DNA from: a virus
Strand: one strand, 5' to 3'
Virus record (IMG/VR): IMGVR_UViG_3300047317_000191
Coordinates: 1 to 39,622 of that record
Length of the DNA stretch: 39,622 bases
Part shown: positions 2,509 through 32,303 of the stretch, piece after piece
Position numbering within the stretch: position 1 is the first letter of the stretch
Layout: every line of letters begins with the position of its first letter
Position numbers and translations under genes: made by a program
Notes under the pieces: model-generated
Told to the model about the DNA's origin: nothing
The model's input: only the letters and a program-made list of their open reading frames with translations
Database searches by the model: none

Positions 2509-5500
2509 TCAGCCCCTAGTCGGTCCGATGTCCGTGCTACTGCGTGTATTCGCCACATCGGCCTGCACCCGAGAGCGGGTGCCGCCCACGGACGATTCGC
2601 CACCCCGGGTGTTGCCCACCGAAGCCTGCGCCCTCGAGCGCGTCGGGTCGGCCGTCCAGCCCAAGCGGGTCGCACCGACGGCAGAGTCGGCACCCCGGGT
2701 CAGGGCGATGTCCGCCTGCGTCCGGGAGCGGGTCGGCCCGATGTCGATCGTGATGTTCACGGCGACGATATTCGCGTCGATGATGCTGCCGACCAGCAGC
2801 GGTACGGCACCGTTGAGGACTACAGGGTTCGACAGCGTCCCGACGAACCCGCCGACCAGCGGGGGTGTGCTCCCGTTCAGGATGCCCACGTTGACGGTCT
2901 GGTCGAGCATCAGCCCCGTCAGCGAGGGGAGCTTCCCGGACAGGGTTCCGGGGTTCGTCACGGTGCCGGAGGCGGAGCCGGTCAGCACCGGCGTCGTGCC
3001 GGAGAGGGACGCGGGATCGGTCAGGGTGCCGGTGGCGGAACCGGTCAGGACCGGGACGGCACCGGACAGCGTTGCCGGGACTACGAAGGCCCCTACCGTC
3101 ACCCCGGTCAGGAGTGGGGTGGACGCCCCCACGGTGCCGGTATTGACGGCAGAGCCCACTACGGAGCCGCTGAGAGCCACTACGGAGCCCGACAGGGAAG
3201 CGACGTTGGTCTGGGTACCTGCGATCGAGCCGGTCAGCACGGGCACCGACCCGGTGACGGTGCCGCCCGAGATGTTGCCCGCCGTGAACGATCCTGTCAG
3301 CACCGGTACTGCACCGTTGAGCGTGGCGGCGTTGACCGCCGTGCCGGTGGCGGACCCGGTCAGTGTCGGTACCTGGCCGTTCAAGGTCGCCGCATTCGTC
3401 GCGGTGCCTGTGTCGGTGCCGGTGAGGACGGGCACCTTGCCGCTGAGTGTCGCCGGGTTGGTGGCCGCGCCCGTATCCGAGCCGGTGAGGACGGGCACCG
3501 ATCCGTTCAGGGTGGCGTTGTTGCTCCCACCTGACCCGGCGACGACGGGCGCGACGATGAGATCGACACCGGTCCAGTAAGTTCCGTTCCCCGCACTGAG
3601 GATGTCCATGTACTCGTAGTAGGAACGGACCCACGAATAGCTGCCGTTGGTATCTGTACTCCCGGACAGGGCGACCGGCGCATTGGTGATTGCTGCGCCT
3701 GTCATTGTTGCTGCTAGGTACGCCTGACTACCTATCTGATAGGCCACCACCACGGGAATCACATTGGTCAACGCGACAGGTGTCGGCCAGATCGCCGTGT
3801 ACCAGCCTTGAACTGTGATGGATGCGAATGGAATGGTGGCGGTGGACAACGGCGAACCGTTATAAGGATTGCTGCCGTCCGAGGGCACGGTATACAGATA
3901 GACCGGAATGTCGCTACCGATCTGGTTCCCGGCAATCAACTCGTTCGTGATGTAGAACCGCATCCCAATGGTGCTCCACCCGGTGACTCCGCCGTACAGG
4001 TAGAACGTCGAACCGATTCGGGTGGGATGCGCATCGTTATAGGCAGTCAGTCCAGTCGGTGGTGTTCCACCCGACCAGACACTGACACTGCTGTCGGGCA
4101 GGCTGCCCGTGAGGACAGGCACTTTGCCGTTCAGGGTGGCGACGTTGACCGGCTGCACATACGGCCCGATCAACCCTGTGGCATTGCCACCGATCCTGGC
4201 TTCGACGTGGTCGATCAAGATACTGCTGAGGTTCCCGGCAGCCGAGACCTTGCCCACTGCGAATGACGTTGAGAGCGTCGTTCCGGTGTTCACCGAGGAA
4301 CTGCTGTAGGACTCGATCAGGGAATCGTCGGAGGCGAGGTGCCACTCCCATTGGAGTGTGCCGTTGGTGCCGTTGATCGAATAGACCGAGACCCAGTACC
4401 ACGTGTCCGCGACGATGGACGCGGCTGAGGTCTTGAGAGTGACCGAGGCCGCAACGAGGTACATCTTCCCGGTAGCGGTGAGCCCGACGAAGTTCGCGCC
4501 GTTACTGATCCACTGCATGAGTTGCGTGGCCGTGGTCGGCAGCACGTAGGCCGGGAAGCAGACGTAGAACCGGACCGCCGCTATCGGGGAGCCCGACCAC
4601 GTTGTGCCGATGGTGGCCTTGGTGCCGGTAGTAGCCGGAGCCTTGGCCGACAGGGTGTCCTTGAACGGGTTGTCGTTGGCGAACGTGGGCGAGCCTTGGA
4701 TCTGCGAGGCAATCAGTACAGAGTTGGTGCCACCAACGGAGTTCGCCTGCGTGATGACGGTGCCGTTCGGCTGCCCCGACTGGTCGGCGTCCCAGTGGAA
4801 CACGGGCACAACTGTCCCGTTGAGGACGGGCACCTTGCCGGACAGGGTCGCCGGGTTCGACGCGGCCGCGTTGACGATCTGGCCGTAGACCAGGCCGAGC
4901 CAGTCGGTGGAGCCGGTGGAGGTGAGGGTCGCGGCCACTGCGGCGGGGGTGGCGAGTGCGGTGCCGAAGGTCTTGTGCTGCCGACTGCTGGAGTTGAAAG
5001 CGTTGTTCAGCACGCTCCACGTCAGGCTGCCCCCGGACACGTCCAGGGTCGAGCCGCCGCCGGTGGACCAGCCGAACGCCAGCAGCAGCGCATCGTTGGC
5101 GGTCGGGGTCAGCGAGCCCGTGGAGATCGAACTCGTGGAGATCTGGGCCGTGGCCAGAGCGCCGTGGGGGCCGAAGGGCGAGCCTGACGGGGTGGCGACG
5201 GGGAAGGACAGCAGGAACGCCTGGGCGTCCAACGCGCCTGCGGTGGCCGCTGTGACGGAGTAGGTGCCGGTGTCCGACCCGGTGGCGTCCTTCCACCACA
5301 CGCCGATCCCGAGACCGCTGCTGTAGGCCCATCCGTCGTTGACGAATCCGGACGGGACGGTGACATCGGAGGGGTGTTGCGTGCCACTGACGCTGTCGTA
5401 CGTCACGACGACGAGCAACACCTTCGATCCGGCGACGACCCCCGCAGGCACCCCAGGGGTGGCCGGGATCGAGCCCGGACTGCCGCTGCTGCCGGTCGTG

Positions 5501-8548: not shown

Positions 8549-9339
8549 GCCACCGCCAACCCGGAGACGAACCCCACCCATCCCGTGTCGGTGGTCCACA
8601 TGAACGTGTAGATGTCGGTGGTGTTCGCCCCGGTGGACGGGACCGGTGGCACTCCCTGCGTCCACTTCACCCCCGTCGGCAGGGTCACCGTCCTGTTCCC
8701 GGTGGCGTCCTGCTTGACGGTCAGCGTCAGGGTCACGGCCTTCGTGGCATCGGACGGCGTGTACAGGGTGAACGTCGTCGTCCCGACCACCTGATACCGC
8801 TGTACCGAACCGCTCGACAGGTTGAGGGTGATCGCCCCGGAGGCAGCGTTGTTGTTGACGTAGGGCAGCACCTGATCCCCGGGCAGGCCCGGCACGCCCT
8901 GGGTGACGGTGCCGCCGGTCGCCGCAGACACGGGCGAGTTCAGGGTGATGTCGTAGGAGCCGTCACCATTCGGCGTCACCAGCCCGAGGTTGAACGTCTC
9001 GGCGTTCCGGCCCGGGATGTTGATGTCCACGAGCAGCGTGTAGCCGTTCGGATTCATCGCCGGGTTGTTCGGGTTGAGGACCCACACACCGACCTGACCC
9101 TGCGGGTCGAGGATGTCCCCGGTCGCATTCAGGAGACAGGTGATCGGCTGCGGGTAGAAGCTGACGGGCGGGGTGGAGGACGAGTCGATGACCTTGGTCA
9201 CCGGGTGCCGGATCGTGACGGTGGTCCCCGCTGGCAACGGCACCCAGTCCGGGTTCACGTCCCCGTCGGCCTGGTCTCCGATGACATCGAGCAGCCGATA
9301 CACGAGCTTGATGTAGGTGGCGTTCCCGGGCGCGGTCAC
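8545..9339 (-). CDS. Minor tail protein (264 aa)
   Basis: A 264-residue beta-rich protein. Residues about 1-125 look like an immunoglobulin-like or wall-facing domain (YIKLVYRLLDVIGD, GTTVTIRHP, YTLLVDINIPG). A short linker TVTQGVPGLPGDQVLP is followed by a C-terminal beta domain with alternating Thr/Val strands (TTTFTLYTPSDATKAVTLTL). The only usable start is a GTG six codons after an in-frame stop, with a poor ribosome site. The stop overlaps the next gene by four bases. It is likely a tail-tip or fibre subunit. Confidence 0.78.
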   Translation of the reverse strand: MTAPGNATYIKLVYRLLDVIGDQADGDVNPDWVPLPAGTTVTIRHPVTKVIDSSSTPPVSFYPQPITCLLNATGDILDPQGQVGVWVLNPNNPAMNPNGYTLLVDINIPGRNAETFNLGLVTPNGDGSYDITLNSPVSAATGGTVTQGVPGLPGDQVLPYVNNNAASGAITLNLSSGSVQRYQVVGTTTFTLYTPSDATKAVTLTLTVKQDATGNRTVTLPTGVKWTQGVPPVPSTGANTTDIYTFMWTTDTGWVGFVSGLAVA

Positions 9340-24881: not shown

Positions 24882-25436
24882 TCACCAGCGGTTCACCAAC
24901 CGGCCGATAGCCGGGTCGACCAGGGCGGTGCCCTTCTCGTCCACGGACGACACTACGGCACGGCCGTGGTAGTTGAGCTTGAGCCCGTCCTTGAAGGTGG
25001 GGCCGTCGAAGCTCATCGGGCCGAACTGCACACGGAACAGGACGAACTCCATGGTCCGCACGACACCGGCGGAGTCACGGGAAGGCACCCGGATCAGCAT
25101 GGGCTTCGGGGTCGTGTTGAGGGACCCAATGGACCACAGCGGCAGGCTGTAGTAGTCGTTGGGGGCAGTGCCGGACGACGTCACCACCGTGTTGGTCAGC
25201 GTGGCGATCAGGGAGAACGGGACGTACCCGCCCTGCACCGTGATCGTGGCGAAGTTGAACCAGTCCCAGACCGACAGGACGACGTCGTCGCCGTTGTTCT
25301 GGTAGTCGGCGGTGTCGAGTTCCACCGTCCCCTGGTTCACGCCATAGATGTCACCGTTGACCAACTGCGCGCCGGTCGTGCCATCGAGGATCGCCGCGTG
25401 CGAGATCGAAAAGCCCTCGAAGATACCCGTGGCCAT
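24882..25436 (-). CDS. Major tail protein (184 aa)
   Basis: The tube subunit. The 184-residue length, the position just before the chaperone frames, and an all-beta pattern (VELDTADYQNNGDDVVLSVW, ATITVQGGYVPFSLIATL, MEFVLFRVQFGPMSFDGP) ending in a strand with LKLNYHGRAVVSSVDE fit siphovirus tube proteins. The ATG has TAGGAG upstream. It is preceded by the recurrent CTGCCGATAAGAGTGGTG motif and followed by a hairpin, in keeping with high, separately set expression. Confidence 0.88.
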   Translation of the reverse strand: MATGIFEGFSISHAAILDGTTGAQLVNGDIYGVNQGTVELDTADYQNNGDDVVLSVWDWFNFATITVQGGYVPFSLIATLTNTVVTSSGTAPNDYYSLPLWSIGSLNTTPKPMLIRVPSRDSAGVVRTMEFVLFRVQFGPMSFDGPTFKDGLKLNYHGRAVVSSVDEKGTALVDPAIGRLVNRW

Positions 25437-25477: not shown

Positions 25478-25500
25478 GTCTCACCACTCTTATCGGCAGC
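25478..25500 (-). promoter_or_regulatory. Recurrent motif, copy A, upstream of the major tail gene
   Basis: Minus strand CTGCCGATAAGAGTGGTG followed by AGAC, about 40-60 bases upstream of the major tail start in a 66-base gap. It differs by one substitution and one inserted base over about 22 bases from copy B inside the protease-scaffold gene, and a shorter version lies upstream of the capsid gene. Promoter, repressor site and RNA element are all possible. Confidence 0.5.
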
Positions 25501-25502
25501 AC

Positions 25503-25730
25503 CTACCGGGGCACAACGACCGTCTCGACCTCTTCACCCAGGATGTTGAACCGGTGGAGCACCCGGGCCACGTCCTGCCCCTCCCGGCGGAGGGAACGGC
25601 AGCAGTCGGAACAGGCGAACTCGATGAGGTTGCCGTCAGTAATCTTCGGCTTCTCACCCTCGGACACCACGATGGCCAGCAGGCGACGGGGCCCGACGGG
25701 GCAGCGGATCTGGGTCTGGGTCTCGGTCAC
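25503..25730 (-). CDS. Small cysteine-containing protein, zinc-ribbon/Com-like (75 aa)
   Basis: The layout (IRCPVGPRRLLA early, NLIEFACSDCCRSL in the middle) recalls the phage Mu Com-like zinc finger, which has two Cys pairs. Here the first pair has only C10; the second is C40, C43 and C44. So it may bind zinc with a changed ligand set or not at all. The GTG overlaps the glycosyltransferase stop by four bases (GTGA). Com in Mu regulates translation of the neighbouring Mom gene; a similar role here is only an analogy. It lies directly before the major tail gene and its motif copy. Confidence 0.75.
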   Translation of the reverse strand: MTETQTQIRCPVGPRRLLAIVVSEGEKPKITDGNLIEFACSDCCRSLRREGQDVARVLHRFNILGEEVETVVVPR

Positions 25731-26836
25731 GGCATTCCCCGGATCAGGGTGACCTCACGACGTTCGAGGTTGTTGGCGATGGTGAACAGCCGCTCGACCA
25801 CCGTCGACCAGTTGCACATCGCGGGGATCGTCCGGGCCGCGATGTCGCCCTTCTTCTTGGCCTCGTCACGGTTCCGGTAGGCCGACAGCATCGCGGCCTT
25901 GAGACCTTCCATGTCGATGTTCGCCCAGTGCACGTCCGGGTGGAACGGCATCTGCCCCAACGTGACCGGCACCGGGTAGGCGTACTCATCGGAGAGCCAC
26001 TGCGCATGCCCGCCCCAGTTGCTGGCGATCACGGTCCCGCCGGTGGACAGGAACTCGAGGGCCGGGAGGTTCTTGCCCTCCCCATGCGACGGTGCCAGGA
26101 GGACGTGCTGGTTCCGGTAGAACTCCTTGAGCACGTCCATGGGCCAGGTCTCGTAGTGGATACGGAGCTTCGGGATCGTCTCCATGATCGCCGGGTGCAG
26201 CGAACCGGACGTGTCCTTGAGATGTAGCTCGGCACCCTCGAACTCGACCGGGTACTCCGTCTTCAGTTCCTTGAAGGCGGCGATCGCGGCGAACGGATTC
26301 TTCCGCTCGCTGAGCACCCCGCACATGGCGAAGCCGAACCGGTCGGAGAACCAGTCCCGCTCCACCGCGCCCCAGGGCTCGGGGTCGTAGCCGCCCTGCA
26401 GCACCAACAGCGGCAGGTCATCGGGACAGTGCGGACGCATCGCCTCGGCGGTCACCTCGTCGTAGCAGAGGATCGCGTCGAAGGTCTGGAAGTGGTAGTC
26501 GATCTCGCTCAGATTCTTGGCGTCCATATTCGCCAGCGAGTCGAACTCCCACATCGTCCAACCGATCAGCCGGTCGCACGCCTCCCGCATCTCGGGCGAC
26601 GTCCGCAACTGCGCAGGGTCGAGATGGATCAACCCCAGATCGAACGGGCCGACTAGCGGCTTGGTCAACAGCATCGCCACCTCGGTGGGCAGCGGGGAAC
26701 TGACGAACGTCGGCTGCAGATACACCTCCCAGCCGAACTCGAGGAACGTCTGGGCGAGCCCGATACCGTCCCGTCCGTAGCCGCTGAATATCGACAGCGG
26801 CACCTTGAGTAGCACGGACGGACGGTGCGACTTCAT
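25727..26836 (-). CDS. GT-B fold glycosyltransferase (GT4-like, 369 aa)
   Basis: A retaining glycosyltransferase-like protein. The N-lobe opens with VLLKVPLSIFSGYGRDG, the donor-lobe start is seen in FAMCGVLSERKNPFAAIAAF (from 169), and the EX7E motif that contacts the sugar nucleotide is E253 to E261 (EGKNLPALE), followed by GGTVIASNWGG. I chose the ATG preceded by TAGGAG; an earlier in-frame start lies inside the tail terminator gene. It sits in the middle of the tail operon, overlapping the next gene, so it is probably expressed with virion proteins and may glycosylate a capsid or tail protein. Glycosylation of actinophage virions by phage-coded transferases is reported; this target is inferred. 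Donor sugar unknown. Confidence 0.85.
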   Translation of the reverse strand: MKSHRPSVLLKVPLSIFSGYGRDGIGLAQTFLEFGWEVYLQPTFVSSPLPTEVAMLLTKPLVGPFDLGLIHLDPAQLRTSPEMREACDRLIGWTMWEFDSLANMDAKNLSEIDYHFQTFDAILCYDEVTAEAMRPHCPDDLPLLVLQGGYDPEPWGAVERDWFSDRFGFAMCGVLSERKNPFAAIAAFKELKTEYPVEFEGAELHLKDTSGSLHPAIMETIPKLRIHYETWPMDVLKEFYRNQHVLLAPSHGEGKNLPALEFLSTGGTVIASNWGGHAQWLSDEYAYPVPVTLGQMPFHPDVHWANIDMEGLKAAMLSAYRNRDEAKKKGDIAARTIPAMCNWSTVVERLFTIANNLERREVTLIRGMP

Positions 26837-26852
26837 TCGTGGGCTCCTAGCC

Positions 26853-27320
26853 TCAACCGAGCACGATGTTGAAGGTGGCCATCGCTTGTCGCATGTGGTC
26901 ACCGTCGATCACCGGGTAGAAGATCGGCTCCGACGAGCCGAGCGACGACAGCACCCGGAGATCTCCCCACAGGTATTCGTCAGCGGCGGGCAGGTGCAGT
27001 AGCCGGTAGAGCGCGACGAACGTGGTCTCGATCTTGTCGGTGGTGTCGTCCTGCACCACGTTGTTCCCGCCGTCCCGCTGAGGGTCGGCCCAGATGTCGC
27101 AGGCCAGCACCGGGAACCGGGCCGTGTTGTGTTGGTTCGGGGTGGCCCACGACCCGTTGGTCCGCACCACCACCGCGACGGCCCCAGAGCCCTCTACGGT
27201 CGCCTGCAGGTGGTCCCGGAACAACCATGTGGCCGAGACGACATCGAAGCCCAGTGTGGCCGTCAGGGCCGTCTGCGCCGACAAGTACTTCCATGTCGCC
27301 AGGGTCAGGGAGTCGGTCAC
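26853..27320 (-). CDS. Tail terminator protein (155 aa)
   Basis: A 155-residue protein that fits the tail terminator, the ring that caps the tail tube and joins it to the head. The pattern LATWKYLSAQTALTATLG, VVVRTNGSW and FPVLACDIWAD, then a helix VQDDTTDKIETTFVALYRLLH and a final strand pair near MRQAMATFNIVLG, is typical of this family. GTG start, overlapping the upstream gene by four bases. Its place last among the connector genes supports the call. Confidence 0.8.
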   Translation of the reverse strand: MTDSLTLATWKYLSAQTALTATLGFDVVSATWLFRDHLQATVEGSGAVAVVVRTNGSWATPNQHNTARFPVLACDIWADPQRDGGNNVVQDDTTDKIETTFVALYRLLHLPAADEYLWGDLRVLSSLGSSEPIFYPVIDGDHMRQAMATFNIVLG

Positions 27321-27688
27321 AGACCACCGCCCTTGAGGGTGTCGGCCAGAGCCCGGGTGTACTGCTCCCCCATCTGCGACGCCTGCTCGATGAAGTCGTG
27401 CGTCCCGCCCCGCTGGACCTCATACCTGGCGTACCGGACCGGGTCGTGCGGACTGCCTGGCGACGGCCCCCCGAAGGCGACGGTCCCCGTCCAGGAGGAC
27501 TCCTTGATCTCGGAGGACGCCTCCCCGGAGTTCTTGAGGGACCCGGTGATGACGTGCACGAGCGACGCGGTCGCGGCGAACACCCGGCCGAGTGCCGCCT
27601 CGAGATGGGTGGGATCGCTCCCCGGCAGCGTCACGAGCCTGTCGAACTCCCTGGTGGCCTGAGACATGTCCGACTTGATGATGAGCAT
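27317..27688 (-). CDS. HK97 gp10-like head-tail/tail completion protein (123 aa)
   Basis: A small connector protein with the gp10-like pattern: helix FDRLVTLPG, then HVITGSLKNSG, a strand WTGTVAFGG, YARYEVQRGGTHDFIEQA and a C-terminal helix. Members of this family join the stopper to the tail. I placed the start at the ATG two bases after the upstream stop; a long upstream reading is the shadow of two other genes. The stop overlaps the tail terminator start by four bases. Confidence 0.82.
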   Translation of the reverse strand: MLIIKSDMSQATREFDRLVTLPGSDPTHLEAALGRVFAATASLVHVITGSLKNSGEASSEIKESSWTGTVAFGGPSPGSPHDPVRYARYEVQRGGTHDFIEQASQMGEQYTRALADTLKGGGL

Positions 27689-27690
27689 GA

Positions 27691-28110
27691 CTACGGGCCC
27701 ACGGGAGGATTCGGGAACTGCCCGGTCAACTGCTGGGACGTCTCCACGATCTGCACCTCGATGTGGTGCTGGGCCGAGTAGGCCACCGCCTGGTCCGGGA
27801 TCTGCCGGATCTCGAAGACCCCGGGCACCGGAATGACTCCCTTGGAGTTCGGGATCGCCTGGACCCGGTCCCCGGCCTTGATGGCGACGGTGGACGCACA
27901 GAACATCACCCCGACGTGGTCGGGAGCCTTGCCCGCCTCCGTCGGCATGGGTGCGTCCTTGCCTGGCCGGAGGAACGTCAGGTCCAACCGGCACGGCACC
28001 GCGTTGAGCGGGGCACCCACCGGCACCCAGTCGATCCGCATCATGCCGTCGACATTCGTGGTGCTGGGCCGGAGCACCTTGACCAAGGAGTTGTAGAGGT
28101 GAGAGATCAC
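27691..28110 (-). CDS. Head-tail stopper / head closure protein (139 aa)
   Basis: A 139-residue beta-barrel-like protein in the position of the head closure protein that holds DNA in the filled head. It has MFCASTVAIKAGDRVQAIPNS style strands and FEIRQIPDQ, typical of SPP1 gp16-like stoppers. GTG start, overlapping the upstream adaptor stop by four bases. The family call rests mainly on gene order and size. Confidence 0.72.
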   Translation of the reverse strand: MISHLYNSLVKVLRPSTTNVDGMMRIDWVPVGAPLNAVPCRLDLTFLRPGKDAPMPTEAGKAPDHVGVMFCASTVAIKAGDRVQAIPNSKGVIPVPGVFEIRQIPDQAVAYSAQHHIEVQIVETSQQLTGQFPNPPVGP

Positions 28111-28658
28111 TTGGGGTCTTCCCCACGGTAGAAGGCGGGGATCGGGTACCAGTTGAGGTCATGCGGGGCCAGCACGACACGCTCCCCGTCGATCTCCACC
28201 ATCGGCCAGTCTTCCTCGAACACCCTGGTCGACGTGTGCGTGACGTTGAGGACCGCACACACCCCAAGCTGACCGACCGCGAGGTCGAACCAACTGATCC
28301 CCGTCGGCAGCCCGGCCCGCACCGCCTCGGTGACCCGCACCGTCGTCCGGGACGTCTGCCGGGGCATGGAGTAGCTGTACGAACCGATCGTCTCCGACTG
28401 GAACGGGGCAGCCGCAAGCTCGGCGTACTGCTGCCCCAAGTAGATCTCGTCGGCAATCGAGAGGACAGCAAACTCGGCCAACTGGGCCTTGTCGGGTTCG
28501 GTCGGCCACGAGTTCTCATCGAGACAGGTGGCGAACTTGAACAGGATCTCGGCCTGCAGCAACGACATGTCGACGTAGGCCGTGTTCGTGTAGGACTCGA
28601 CGGGACGCCCGGTGAAGTCCGACAGGTCGAAAACCGTGTAGTCCGGGTAGGTCGCCAC
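28107..28658 (-). CDS. Head-tail adaptor (183 aa)
   Basis: A mainly helical protein with LLQAEILFKFATCLDE and LAEFAVLSIADEIYLGQQ near the start and an amphipathic middle, then a beta C-terminus (RVFEEDWPMVEIDG). This fits the gp6/gp15-like adaptor that binds the portal and is followed by the stopper. The GTG has AGGAGG five bases upstream, the best ribosome site in the connector block. Confidence 0.75.
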   Translation of the reverse strand: MATYPDYTVFDLSDFTGRPVESYTNTAYVDMSLLQAEILFKFATCLDENSWPTEPDKAQLAEFAVLSIADEIYLGQQYAELAAAPFQSETIGSYSYSMPRQTSRTTVRVTEAVRAGLPTGISWFDLAVGQLGVCAVLNVTHTSTRVFEEDWPMVEIDGERVVLAPHDLNWYPIPAFYRGEDPK

Positions 28659-28676
28659 GGTTCCTCCTGGTGTCGG

Positions 28677-29180
28677 CTACCGGGTGGCAGGCATCATCGG
28701 CGGGCGAGGTCGCCTGTCCTCTGTTGACTTCGGATTCCCGGTGGCGTCGAGCCTGGCATGCGGCCACGGGCCCTCCCGCCACATCACCTTGCCCCACGAG
28801 TCGATCTGGTCGGACTCGGTCTGGGACATCCAGGTCTTGCCCTTCCGGTCCAGGGTATCGGCGTACTTCTCCGGGGTGACCTCGACCTCCTGGCCCTGGT
28901 ACCAGACCCGGCCCCACGCGGTGAACCCGTCGCTCACGAAGTGGATGACCGGGTTGGGGGTGTCGTCGGGGACGACGGGGACGGTGGGGTCCAGGTGCTC
29001 GTCCTGGTCGGTGACGACGGGGATGTCCAGGGCCTTGGTGTTGGCCCGGACGGCCGCGTCTTCGGCGTCCTTCCGGGCCTTGGTCTCCGCAGTCTCGGGG
29101 ACGACGGCGGGATCGCCGGTGGGTGGGCGCTTCTCGGGGGGAAGACGCTTGGCAAGATCCTCGAGCCTGAGTTCAGCCAC
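28677..29180 (-). CDS. Hypothetical head-region protein (167 aa)
   Basis: The N-terminal half is Pro/Glu/Lys/Asp-rich and probably disordered (LAKRLPPEKRPPTGDP). The C-terminal part has VIHFVSDGFTAWGRVWYQGQ, a short beta domain seen beside connector genes in many actinophages, then a basic tail ending RPRPPMMPATR. GTG start with AAGGG upstream. Structural role inferred from position only. Confidence 0.75.
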   Translation of the reverse strand: MAELRLEDLAKRLPPEKRPPTGDPAVVPETAETKARKDAEDAAVRANTKALDIPVVTDQDEHLDPTVPVVPDDTPNPVIHFVSDGFTAWGRVWYQGQEVEVTPEKYADTLDRKGKTWMSQTESDQIDSWGKVMWREGPWPHARLDATGNPKSTEDRRPRPPMMPATR

Positions 29181-29219
29181 GGGTCAGAGCCCTTCTGTGG
29201 GACGGCAGTTGACGGCAGT

Positions 29220-29501
29220 CTATTCGGTGGGCCCGGGCTGCAGCTTCTCCACGGCGGTGAGCACCTCGGCCACGTCGGCGTCCTCCTGTTGCTTGACCTC
29301 AACCCTCGCGGCCTGCCACGCGGACCAGTGGCCGGACACCAGCGCCCACAGGGACAGTGCAGCCACGTAGGTCACCGAGGTGATCCAGCCCGTCCAGATC
29401 GACACCGGGATCATCACGACCCAGAACAGCGCCAGCCACCCGTTGATGCGGCGCATGAAGACGGGATCACCCTGCACCATGGCCCACAGGCTCTTTATCA
29501 C
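29220..29501 (-). CDS. Two-helix membrane protein (93 aa)
   Basis: Two membrane segments are seen: about residues 21-40 (LALFWVVMIPVSIWTGWI) and 43-58 (TYVAALSLWALVSG), followed by a charged tail. The RINGW start and ALSLWALVSGHW stretch resemble a family seen beside head genes in actinophages. Small size and two helices would allow a holin or pinholin role, but it is in the head cluster, far from the endolysin, so a role in assembly at the membrane or an accessory lysis role is equally open. It is the first gene after the terminator. GTG start with a weak ribosome site; an ATG seven codons later is possible. Confidence 0.78.
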   Translation of the reverse strand: MIKSLWAMVQGDPVFMRRINGWLALFWVVMIPVSIWTGWITSVTYVAALSLWALVSGHWSAWQAARVEVKQQEDADVAEVLTAVEKLQPGPTE

Positions 29502-29528
29502 GGGACGTGAGTACCCAGGAAAGACAAC

Positions 29529-29557
29529 GGGCCCGGAGCACGAAGCTCCGAGCCCGC
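29529..29557 (-). terminator. Intrinsic terminator after the major capsid gene
   Basis: A 12-base stem (one U-G pair) with a five-base loop, followed on the minus strand by TTGTCTTT, begins 18 bases after the capsid stop. This is the clearest terminator in the window. It should end most capsid transcripts and reduce read-through into the membrane protein and connector genes. Confidence 0.72.
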
Positions 29558-29574
29558 TGGCCGAGTCCCCAGGA

Positions 29575-30582
29575 TCAGGGCGCGTCCACGTTCGTGACCA
29601 CGACCATCTGCTCCGGCCGGGTGATGACCGGCATGATGCTCCACTCGAGAAGGTACTGCCGGGCGGACGGGTCCGGCTCCTTCCACGTCTTGGAGAACTT
29701 GCCGGTGAAACCGTCGGGGGCTTCGTCGTCCGCCGACGGACCGATGAACAGTTCCATCGGGCGCTGCGACGTGTAGTTGCCGATGTAGAGCGCGCCGTCC
29801 GGCACGAACATCTGGGTGTTGCCGTTGTCGTCCTGGTACTGCGAGTCGATCAGTGTCCAGTTGAGGCCGAGGAAGCCAGGCAGGGTGCCGGTCTGGTAGT
29901 ACTGGTCCTTCATGCGGTCCGACAGCAGGTACGGCGCGTTGGTACCGGAGTTGGCGAACGACTGGAAGATGTACTGCGCCGTGACGTCGGTCAGGTAGGC
30001 GGTATCGGCGGCGACCCGCGCGTCCCGCACGATGAGCCGCTTCCACGCCTGCACGTCGGAGACGATCTGGTTCGGGGTGGCCGTGCTCCACCGGACGGCG
30101 GGCTTGGCGATCTTGTGGGTGGCCGGGAAGAGATAGTCCACCGCGATGGCCGCACCATCGGGGTAGGTCACGGTCAGCACGCCGGACAACGACTGCCAGA
30201 GCGTGAACTCCGCGAAGTTGTCGAACCGCATGTTGAGGTCCGTGATCTCCCGCATCACCGCCTGCTCGGCGTTGGTCGCGGCGATCTGCCCGGCGGTCCG
30301 GAGCCAGTGGATCGTGGTGGGCTCGAAGACCTTCTTCTCCCGGAGGTAGATGAAGGACGCGCTCTGCGCCGACCGGACCAGCCGGGGCACGATCTGTGCC
30401 TCGGAGTTCGGCACGTTGGGCTTGGCCACCGACCGGGAACCCCGGATGACGTCCCAGTTGACCGACGGGAACGGCCAAGGGGTCTTCGGGGTCGTGTTGA
30501 GCAGCGTCAGGGTCTCCGGCGTCACCAGCTTTTCAACGACGCCACGCAGGACCATGGGCTCGAGAAGAGAGATGGCTGGCAT
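29575..30582 (-). CDS. Major capsid protein, lambda gpE family (335 aa)
   Basis: The HK97-fold shell subunit of the lambda gpE type. Seen: MPAISLLEPMVLRGVVEKL near the start, SASFIYLREKKVFEP, AEQAVMREITDLNMRFDN (spine-helix region), QIVSDVQAWKRLIVR, FVPDGALYIGN and the end LLEWSIMPVITRPEQMVVV. The family places the decoration protein directly upstream, as found here. The ATG has AAAGGA upstream. It has a motif copy 30-45 bases upstream and a terminator downstream, which fits high, separate expression. Confidence 0.92.
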   Translation of the reverse strand: MPAISLLEPMVLRGVVEKLVTPETLTLLNTTPKTPWPFPSVNWDVIRGSRSVAKPNVPNSEAQIVPRLVRSAQSASFIYLREKKVFEPTTIHWLRTAGQIAATNAEQAVMREITDLNMRFDNFAEFTLWQSLSGVLTVTYPDGAAIAVDYLFPATHKIAKPAVRWSTATPNQIVSDVQAWKRLIVRDARVAADTAYLTDVTAQYIFQSFANSGTNAPYLLSDRMKDQYYQTGTLPGFLGLNWTLIDSQYQDDNGNTQMFVPDGALYIGNYTSQRPMELFIGPSADDEAPDGFTGKFSKTWKEPDPSARQYLLEWSIMPVITRPEQMVVVTNVDAP

Positions 30583-30614
30583 AGCCGTAGTCCTTTCAGA
30601 CCGAGTTCGTTGCT

Positions 30615-30629
30615 AACTCTTTCGGCAGC
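30615..30629 (-). promoter_or_regulatory. Recurrent motif, copy C, upstream of the capsid gene
   Basis: Minus strand GCTGCCGAAAGAGTT, matching GCTGCCGATAAGAGT of copy A apart from one missing base. It lies about 35-45 bases upstream of the capsid ATG and matches less well beyond the core than copies A and B do. Confidence 0.42.
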
Positions 30630-30707
30630 GCCGCATCTTTCGATGGGCCGGTCTGCGCCTCCCCGGAGGGAACACTCGGCTGACCTTGGAGTCTGGACTC
30701 CACGGAA

Positions 30708-30732
30708 CCGGACCGGCTCATACCCGGTCCGG
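30708..30732 (-). terminator. Hairpin after the decoration gene
   Basis: A perfect nine-base inverted repeat (CCGGACCGG / CCGGTCCGG) with a seven-base loop, 11 bases after the decoration gene stop. No T-run follows, so it may be a weak terminator, an RNA stabiliser or a protein-binding site. Confidence 0.5.
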
Positions 30733-30743
30733 AACCGAAGGGC

Positions 30744-31148
30744 TCAGAACGTGAAGACGTTCGTCGCGGTGTCGGCCCGCGCGTTCAGCTTGGTGATGGC
30801 GTTGGCGTCCGCACCGGAGACCAAGCTGTTCTTGAGGATTCCGGCGATCAGCATGTTCGCCTGGAACGGGCCCACCGTCGTGACGGTGCCGGTGTCCACG
30901 CTCTTCCGGAGGACGCCGGACGGGTTCTGGGACCCGTCACCGCTGCCGGAGGCATACACCTTGTAGAGCTTGGTCGCCGTGACCTGCCCCAGCACGGTGC
31001 CGGTCAGGATGACGCCCTGACCGGGAGCCAGGTGCACCCCGACCTGGGTGTAACCCCGCATCGAGGACAGGATCTCGACGTCGGACTGGGTGTCGCCGGT
31101 CACGAAACTCGGGTCGTGGAGAACGTTGCCGACGTACTGAGTCGCCAT
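30744..31148 (-). CDS. Head decoration protein, lambda gpD-like (134 aa)
   Basis: Size and place (between scaffold and capsid genes) match the lambda gpD role, a trimer that stabilises the expanded capsid. The sequence is beta-rich with VHLAPGQGVILTGTVLG, SGVLRKSVDTGTVTT and FQANMLIAGIL, the last being typical of decoration proteins. ATG start with AAAGG upstream. A perfect hairpin follows it. Confidence 0.85.
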   Translation of the reverse strand: MATQYVGNVLHDPSFVTGDTQSDVEILSSMRGYTQVGVHLAPGQGVILTGTVLGQVTATKLYKVYASGSGDGSQNPSGVLRKSVDTGTVTTVGPFQANMLIAGILKNSLVSGADANAITKLNARADTATNVFTF

Positions 31149-31196
31149 GGTCGGAGCCTTTCGGGATTACGTGGGCAGGATGGGCGAGGCCGGGGG

Positions 31197-31682
31197 TTAC
31201 TTCTTGCCCTGTAGAACGGGGTCAAGCGTTGAAGTCAGGCGGGCGATCTCGGCGTCCACGTCAAGTTCGTGGGCATCCGATGGCGGTTCGGTACCACGCT
31301 CCTTGGAGAGCGCGATGATTGCCTTCTCCGGGACCAGCGCGTCGAACATCTCCCGGTTGGTGTTGGCCAGGGAGATCATCGGGTCGCGCTGCACCGGAAG
31401 GATGCGACCCTGGGAGATCAGGTCGTCCACCTCCCGGGAGGTGGCCTCATTCTTGTAGGTGTCCACGGCGGCGGACAGGGCGACGTTCTCCGTCGCCACG
31501 TCCACCACGGCCTTGACCAGAGCCTCGGCGGAAGCGGAGGACTGCCCGGCCGACAGGGAGATCAGGCCCGAGTCCACCATCGCGGCGGACAGCTTGGTGA
31601 TCGTTCCGACCTGCGCCTCGAGCGCCACGACATCGACGCCGTGGGTCAGTAGGGCCTCGATGAGTTCCTGCTTCGTGGGCAT
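31197..31682 (-). CDS. Nested scaffold protein (161 aa) from internal start
   Basis: In-frame product of the protease-scaffold gene beginning at M208 (MPTKQELIEALLTHG), with GGGAG eight bases upstream. A second internal ATG at M189 (31739; 180 aa) also has GGAG eight bases upstream. The product would be the whole helical scaffold without the protease. Assembly needs far more scaffold than protease, and lambda Nu3 gives the precedent. Which ATG is used cannot be told from sequence alone. Confidence 0.58.
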   Translation of the reverse strand: MPTKQELIEALLTHGVDVVALEAQVGTITKLSAAMVDSGLISLSAGQSSASAEALVKAVVDVATENVALSAAVDTYKNEATSREVDDLISQGRILPVQRDPMISLANTNREMFDALVPEKAIIALSKERGTEPPSDAHELDVDAEIARLTSTLDPVLQGKK

Positions 31683-32303
31683 GGCGTCGTCTCCCGGAAT
31701 GTTGGGGTCAGGCTGTGCAGTGAGCGGGACCAGAACCATCGGTTCGTCTCCACCACTGTTATCGGCAGAACCAAACGCGAAGAGCGGCGACGATCCTTCA
31801 GTGGCTGTGGCCGCTATGGTCTCGAACGGATCGAGATCAACGATGTAGGGCCGGTTGGTGACTGCGACATGAAGGAGGGTCGGCCCGACCTTCTTCCCGG
31901 TCCGGGTGTCGGTGTAGTCCTGGTGGAGCATTGCGGACGCCCCGAGAAGGGTCGTGCCGATCTTCTCCGACCTGTCCTGGTCCCGGACGTCAAGGGTCGC
32001 GTAGAGCTTGTCACCGTCTCGCTCCAACCCGATGATCTCCCCGATGTTCCGGTCGGGATCTTCGGTGTGTTCGTTCTTCGGCCCGGCCAGAGGGATCTGG
32101 ACGGTGGACACGACGTTGGTCGAGAAGTTGTTGACCAGCCGGTCCAGGAACGCATCGTCAATGTCGATGGTCTGCCCCGTGATGGGGTGGATCAGCGGAC
32201 CCTTGGACAGAATGTGCTTCCGGAAGAGCTTGCCCGAAGCCGTCTTGGAGAGCACGACGAAGGCATCACCCGGGGAAGGCGTGAAGAACGTCTTGGTGGG
32301 CAC
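31197..32303 (-). CDS. Prohead protease-scaffold fusion (Mu gpI-like, 368 aa)
   Basis: The N-terminal half (1-165) resembles the Mu gpI-type prohead protease: VQIPLAGPKNEHTEDP with H79, IGEIIGLERDGDKLYATLDV, then LLGASAMLHQDY with S123 as the likely nucleophile and LLHVAVTNRPYIVDL. Residues about 166-208 form an acidic, disordered linker. The remainder (209-368) is a helical scaffold: TKQELIEALLTHGVDVV, ENVALSAAVDTYKNEATSREVDDLI. Such proteases remove scaffold and head-protein N-termini after shell assembly. GTG start with AGGAGG six bases upstream. Two internal ATGs with good ribosome sites suggest that the scaffold is also made alone, as for lambda C/Nu3. Confidence 0.88.
   Translation of the reverse strand: MPTKTFFTPSPGDAFVVLSKTASGKLFRKHILSKGPLIHPITGQTIDIDDAFLDRLVNNFSTNVVSTVQIPLAGPKNEHTEDPDRNIGEIIGLERDGDKLYATLDVRDQDRSEKIGTTLLGASAMLHQDYTDTRTGKKVGPTLLHVAVTNRPYIVDLDPFETIAATATEGSSPLFAFGSADNSGGDEPMVLVPLTAQPDPNIPGDDAMPTKQELIEALLTHGVDVVALEAQVGTITKLSAAMVDSGLISLSAGQSSASAEALVKAVVDVATENVALSAAVDTYKNEATSREVDDLISQGRILPVQRDPMISLANTNREMFDALVPEKAIIALSKERGTEPPSDAHELDVDAEIARLTSTLDPVLQGKK
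31746..31768 (-). promoter_or_regulatory. Recurrent motif, copy B, inside the protease-scaffold gene
   Basis: Minus strand CTGCCGATAACAGTGGTG, then GAGAC, in the linker-coding part. It ends seven bases before the first internal ATG (31739) and about 63 before the second. It is nearly identical to copy A in a non-coding gap, so the match is not explained by shared protein coding. Confidence 0.5.

Follow-up and report, generated by a model that had tools for sequence, protein, structure and literature searches.

Predicted -10-only late promoters and a FliA/WhiG-like sigma factor in phages related to Microbacterium phage Magritte

The virion gene region and its repeated element

The window analysed here is the whole of a 39.6 kb stretch (39,622 nucleotides) of the virus record IMGVR_UViG_3300047317_000191, a phage fragment (G000) with its virion genes on the minus strand, and it carries two copies of a short element that we predict to be the -10 regions of late promoters. 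The capsid and tail genes of the window match those of Microbacterium phage Magritte (133 kb, OR553905.1) and of dozens of IMG/VR contigs. The genes that concern us, all on the minus strand, are those for the major tail protein (24882..25436; 54% identity to Magritte gp33, "major tail protein"), for a protease/scaffold (31197..32303; the Magritte counterpart, gp19, is annotated "scaffolding protein") and for the major capsid protein (29575..30582), the last of which lies downstream of a structured leader RNA described below. Within the protease/scaffold gene an in-frame ATG at 31682 (MPTKQELIEALL...), preceded by GGGAG, is the likely start of a separate scaffold protein (31197..31682, minus strand); the arrangement M-P-T-K/E that follows the internal copy of the element recurs in relatives and supports such a start.

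The copy before the major tail protein gene, P3, lies at 25482..25499 on the minus strand (CTGCCGATAAGAGTGGTG), with its core GCCGATAA at 25497-25490, and is predicted to drive that gene with a transcription start near 25481-25482 and a 5' untranslated region of about 45 nucleotides (nt). The second copy, P2, lies inside the protease/scaffold gene at 31751..31768 on the minus strand (CTGCCGATAACAGTGGTG), where it is read as the codons GCC GAT AAC (Ala-Asp-Asn); a transcript beginning at P2 would have its 5' end near 31750-31751, some 68 nt ahead of the ATG at 31682. The exact octamer GCCGATAA is present in both. The original prediction, made from the letters of the window, had given these repeats as 25478-25500 and 31746-31768; two 18-mers are indeed found there on the minus strand, the ranges being a few bases too wide, and the scaffold copy, which had been placed within about 65 bases of its gene, actually lies 69-86 nt before the internal ATG.

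As a bare repeat the pair is unremarkable, because near-repeats of such length abound in the window (59 overlapping same-strand pairs of 18-mers differ at one position at most, P2/P3 among them), and the case therefore rests on the relatives; what does appear remarkable about the pair is its placement and its conservation there. A search of both strands of the window found no third place within three mismatches of the 18-mer (0.11 expected), and among viral contigs the exact 18-mer occurs in assemblies of the same phage and otherwise only in two unrelated coding sequences. It had also been proposed that three copies precede the genes whose products are needed in abundance and that a weaker fourth precedes the protease start, all in one orientation; this holds for the tail protein and scaffold copies, and for the other two a chance repeat is the best account. 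The supposed capsid copy (GCTGCCGAAAGAGTT, 30615-30629) can be aligned with the others only if a one-base gap is allowed, and it is missing the T of CGAT, a base kept in nearly all genomes; of 57 relatives only 1 has a strict match in the 100 nt ahead of its capsid gene. It consists of the last bases of the capsid leader RNA, the source of its GCTGC, followed by an unconserved tail, and on these grounds (the missing T, the gap, the lack of conservation and the overlap with the leader) it was rejected as a promoter. The fourth copy, before the protease start, agrees at 13 of 18 positions, as do six other places over both strands, which is the level of chance.

Conservation of the element in relatives

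Conservation before the major tail protein gene was assessed in 63 distinct upstream regions of orthologues, which are 48-69% identical outside this phage. The strict form [GAT]CCGAT[AT][AGT] is found within 100 nt before the start in 37 of them in the forward orientation and in 2 reversed. With a motif score of at least 10 the element is found in 50 of the 63 (8.5% of shuffles; 6 reversed), and with a score of at least 11 in 39 (1.9% of shuffles; 2 reversed). Once the sites are lined up by their octamer, only two features stand out, GCCGAT[AT]R and, at index 16, a position that is 98% purine.

In many relatives a further copy, P1, precedes the protease/scaffold gene. It lies 15-16 nt before the ATG, with the octamer ending 7-8 nt before it, and the ATG therefore falls at the expected transcript start, a leaderless spacing that is also seen at other genes. 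Nearly all relatives have a counterpart of P2 where protease and scaffold join, in frame and in the variant of the genome concerned. The same private variant is reused at P1, P2 and P3, as with CTGCCAATGGTAG in L125 (three times), GCCGATATCACA in L053, CGATATCCCTG in Magritte, CCGATACTCC in L103 and GCGATAGTAGTA in L083, and matching within genomes exceeds that between genomes for P1-P2, P1-P3 and P2-P3 (p<=5e-5, 20,000 permutations); these p values are not fully independent because related genomes share ancestry, though the places compared are different genes. In some subclades (L093, L098, L120, L133, L135, L137 and others) the element is also found before a glycosyltransferase gene (ACCGATAATACC...) or a tail-assembly-chaperone gene (TCCGATAGC...).

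The private variants are also found at further places in the genomes that were searched. In Magritte, the only annotated relative, CGATATCCCTG occurs ten times on the late (plus) strand and not at all on the other, with 0.0 expected from 60 Markov shuffles. Nine Magritte sites with C or T before CGAT are listed: gp19 and gp98 have one 15 nt ahead of them, gp17, gp23, gp33, gp41 and gp88 have one at a distance of 32-72 nt, one is inside gp19 and one is at gp9 (below). G021 has seven exact copies of GCCAATGGTAG and one with a single mismatch, all on the late strand, and G017 has ten of CCGATACTCC on the late strand. The general core GCCGATWR is not clearly enriched over 29 records (256 against 218 for the reversed control); as the short core is unenriched and the extended, genome-specific motifs are enriched, the specificity lies in the extended form. 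A motif search of the genome and its relatives had been suggested as one way to check the repeat, and for P2 and P3 it returned a conserved element in gene orientation, with own-variant sites on the late strand.

Two observations concern single sites. The annotated start of Magritte gp9 (L141:5332-5353) is at 5332, upstream of a late promoter site at 5338, and an in-frame ATG at 5353 lies 15 nt past the start of that site, so that the true start of gp9 is probably the leaderless ATG at 5353. In G021 (8720-8755; L201:1501-1536) two copies of GCCAATGGTAG stand in tandem 25 base pairs (bp) apart, the only tandem sites among those looked at.

Constraint on the DNA within the protease/scaffold gene

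As P2 lies in coding sequence, its codons were compared with expectations from the same genes, at sites chosen by protein alignment alone so that the choice is independent of the DNA. Of 23 genes with Asp at the junction, 22 use GAT for it (5.8+-1.8 expected), and of 25 with the preceding Ala 20 use GCC (8.7+-2.3 expected); a neighbouring conserved Ala, used as a control, shows no such preference (11/35, 14.2 expected). This test replaced one with sites picked by DNA score (30/30 GCC, 34/34 GAT), which was circular. The original prediction had denied that the coding copy could be put down to protein constraint, and this is right, but for another reason than the one it gave: A-D-N is a frequent and conserved protein motif at the junction, and its synonymous codons are constrained far more. 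Furthermore, the residues follow the promoter variant, being A-E-Y with GCCGAATAC in L020, L033 and L048, A-N-G with GCCAATGGT in L125 and V-D-I with GTCGATATC in Magritte.

A phage-encoded sigma factor of the FliA/WhiG type

The octamer GCCGATAA of P2 and P3 is the -10 octamer of sigma28 (FliA/WhiG) promoters. The sigma28 consensus is TAAAGTTT-n11-GCCGATAA, with transcription starting 6 bp after the octamer, and mutation of the -35 TAAA severely cuts activity (PMC2859248); the actinobacterial WhiG has the same consensus (PMC8325347). In the relatives, apparently leaderless ATGs lie 7-8 nt after the octamer, and the tail protein set has its purine at index 16.

Whole-genome searches revealed that the relatives encode proteins of the sigma-70 family. 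In one family (A2) the FliA_WhiG and WhiG models are the best match in all 20 of 20 members, with a best E of about 1e-51, and the best solved relative is Escherichia coli FliA (6pmi, E=8.3e-43, profile 10-231); the match to FliA/WhiG extends over the full length, that is regions 2, 3 and 4. A profile search found a FliA/WhiG-like sigma in 34 genomes, including nearly all near-complete relatives and G042, a near relative of the window, while the records in which it was missed are of 4.8 to 109 kb and mostly partial. In Magritte this sigma is gp47, annotated only as "DNA binding protein". A second sigma-like family (A3; L172 and relatives, with Magritte gp60 at 53644-54345 of OR553905) has a weak match to region 2 only; where its gene and the FliA/WhiG-like one have both been located, they are about 6-9 kb apart. 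Magritte gp60 is probably also a sigma factor, perhaps one for middle genes. No repressor or integrase gene is annotated in Magritte. Neither sigma nor motif was found in Kitkat and DanielleIgnace, cultured Arthrobacter phages with homologues of the tail protein that were taken as a negative control, an empty search that on its own is weak, and a literature search lacking most subscription journals found no paper on the motif or on FliA-like phage sigmas.

The variants of the motif covary with the sigma. FliA residues D81, R84, R91 and R94 are said to touch the -10 element. Of 30 genomes whose sigma has Arg or Lys where FliA has R91, 29 have C as the second base of the motif; the four genomes with some other residue have G, G, A and T as that base (Fisher p=1e-4). 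The three CGAAT genomes are the only ones with Pro at aligned position 88 (p=2e-4), the CCAAT genome is the only one with Met at 81, and the TTGCT genome has Asn81 plus Ser84. On the sigma tree there are at least two independent changes at 91, one in L121, whose sister L066 keeps both Arg and C, and one in the L071/L075/L081 group. With one promoter lying inside the protease/scaffold reading frame, a change in sigma specificity would rewrite residues of a virion-assembly protein. We lean, with some reserve, towards the view that every one of these phages has a late-promoter code of its own, co-evolving with its FliA/WhiG-like sigma, and that changes of sigma specificity are written into the protease/scaffold protein as A-D-N, A-E-Y, A-N-G or V-D-I.

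Proposed mechanism and alternative explanations

It is very probable, in our judgement, that P2 and P3 are -10-only late promoters read by a phage-encoded FliA/WhiG-like sigma. Computation gave the sites, their conservation and concerted variation, the codon constraint, the leaderless spacing among relatives, the sigma gene and the way it covaries with the motif; from these we infer that the sigma binds at the P2 and P3 sites, that they are active late and that the window's own phage carries the sigma gene. The several sites of Magritte, before late genes, in a single orientation and with no -35, fit a -10-only late promoter served by a phage-made sigma, the kind known from T4. The suggestion that the repeat might be part of a late promoter has thus gained strong support for the tail protein and scaffold copies from conservation, the octamer and the covarying sigma.

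In the proposed scheme a late sigma would bring the host core polymerase to promoters that have only a -10 region, recognising GCCGAT[A/T]R and a few further bases, particular to each genome, as far as the start point, with no conserved -35, and transcription would start 7-8 bases after the octamer. P3 would give the messenger RNA (mRNA) of the tail operon, made up of the major tail protein gene and those behind it. P2 would give a shorter mRNA from inside the protease gene, on which translation of the scaffold would begin at the ATG at 31682, with GGGAG before it, and since this mRNA would have its own scaffold start, the products of the scaffold and of the capsid genes behind it could exceed the protease. 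P2 may also feed the capsid gene, 1.1 kb downstream in the window's phage, which has no recognisable capsid promoter; in relatives P1 and a capsid promoter would carry out these jobs separately.

A number of points weigh against this interpretation. The -35 TAAA expected 15 nt upstream of the octamer has no conserved base in 57 aligned tail protein sites or in the sites of Magritte, G021 and G017. The FliA/WhiG-like sigma gene is not in the 39.6-kb window, and the one A2 member tabulated scores 102.7 bits, below the NCBI curated FliA_WhiG cut-off of 189.6. P1 is not recognisable in the window nor in the near relative L019, some relatives have no recognisable P1 or P3, and no capsid promoter was found 20-40 nt upstream of the leader RNA in the window. 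A motif score of at least 9, tried as evidence of conservation, is unspecific, being reached by 37% of shuffles. Finally, the covarying changes other than those at 91 are each confined to a single lineage (one clade or one genome), so that the independent changes are few.

The alternative that deserves most attention is that the element is bound by a phage activator or repressor, for instance as a stoperator-like or start-associated sequence, and is not itself the core promoter. Short repeated intergenic motifs of unassigned role do occur in Microbacterium phages (PMC7302621), which together with the unconserved -35 lends this some credit; it is nevertheless improbable, as the octamer equals the sigma28 -10, ends 7-8 nt before apparently leaderless starts and, in the tail protein set, before a nearly invariant purine, as would fit a -10, and as its variants covary with the -10 region of the sigma, the motif being asymmetric and always in gene orientation. 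A promoter read by the host's own FliA/WhiG sigma would account for the identity of the octamer to the host sigma28 -10 consensus, and would seem very unlikely given that the -35 TAAA that such a sigma needs is absent and that variants such as CCAAT, CGAAT and TTGCT go along with altered residues in the phage sigma.

Still less can be said for an element acting in the RNA, as an mRNA processing site or leader. Sites do shortly precede genes needed in quantity, but at P1 the motif ends so close to the ATG that there is no room for an upstream leader, there is no common hairpin, and core positions vary with a DNA-binding sigma; the octamer, the leaderless spacing and the covariation thus speak against both the stoperator and the mRNA-processing readings of the original prediction. 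We give equally little credence to a chance repeat combined with conservation of A-D-N in the protein at the scaffold copy. Near-repeats of 18 nt are common in the window and A-D-N is frequent at the junction, as this explanation would have it, yet the synonymous codons are constrained (GAT in 22 of 23), the residues change with the promoter variant of the genome and the sites match across genes within genomes; protein conservation on its own is ruled out by the codon use and the own-variant matching.

The capsid leader RNA

The capsid leader RNA at 30624..30687 (minus strand) is the sole match in the window to model R1 (56 bits, E=6.4e-11) and is a separate thing from the promoter motif. In an alignment of 40 sequences (A4) 91.4% of cells are paired, and changes on both sides of a pair are seen in 121 cells against 36.7 in shuffles; the two basal helices are 100% paired with many pair types, and the helices (in the alignment named P1, P1b, P2 and P3 in their own right) have strong covariation. 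A CAGC/GCTG pseudoknot was considered and rejected, since position 8 varies between G and A opposite an invariant C. There is exactly one copy per genome in the 11 genomes searched whole, and Rfam (release 15) has no match to the leader in the window or in ten loci. By pattern the leader is lacking in L005, L006, L008/L009, L010, L011, L012, L017, L018/L066, L038/L087, L040, L084 and L121, and R1 finds none in the members of this set that were searched.

Most relatives have a late promoter site 20-40 nt upstream of the leader RNA, which would therefore form the 5' end of the capsid mRNA. It is possible that the leader is an autoregulatory or translational element of this mRNA. Elsewhere, eleven tRNA genes are clustered in the initial 1.6 kb of the 13.4-kb contig L025 (L025:1-1558), far upstream of its capsid genes.

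Comparison with known systems

If the reading of P2 and P3 as late promoters is right, it provides a concrete switch for late gene expression in a large group of actinophages, with start points predicted to the base, and proteins of Magritte labelled only "DNA binding protein", gp47 and probably also gp60, can be recognised as sigma factors. The phages would offer a natural series of sigma-promoter pairs for reading -10 specificity, along with a promoter that shapes protein sequence from within a gene, and a number of gene starts would be corrected (leaderless genes).

FliA/WhiG (sigma28) promoters, TAAA-n15-GCCGATAA, share with the phage sites the octamer, a start a few bases downstream and, in the relatives, a sigma of the same type. 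The phage sites differ in having no -35 TAAA, in recognised bases that appear to reach the start point and vary from phage to phage, and in serving structural genes. The late promoters of T4 consist of TATAAATA only and are read by gp55, a minimal sigma that needs the clamp and gp33; they are like the predicted promoters in being -10-only, in preceding virion genes and in using a sigma made by the phage, whereas here the octamer is a different one and the sigma is a full one of the FliA/WhiG type. In lambda C/Nu3 the scaffold is the C-terminal part of the protease gene with its own internal start, a nested arrangement like that seen here, where the internal start is in addition predicted to have its own conserved promoter within the coding sequence. 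Microbacterium cluster EC phages have a repeated 18-bp intergenic motif, TAGaCTATaGGTgTaAgC, 22-30 bp before start codons, together with a sigma gene, the function of the motif having been left open (PMC7302621); they resemble our phages as actinophages with a sigma gene and a short asymmetric repeat ahead of genes, and the motif itself is different.

A phage sigma serving -10-only late promoters is thus of an already known kind, that of T4 late transcription. What sets the predicted system apart is a sigma28-type octamer without a -35, a code that is written genome by genome, a leaderless protease/scaffold gene and a promoter that shapes a protein from within its coding sequence.

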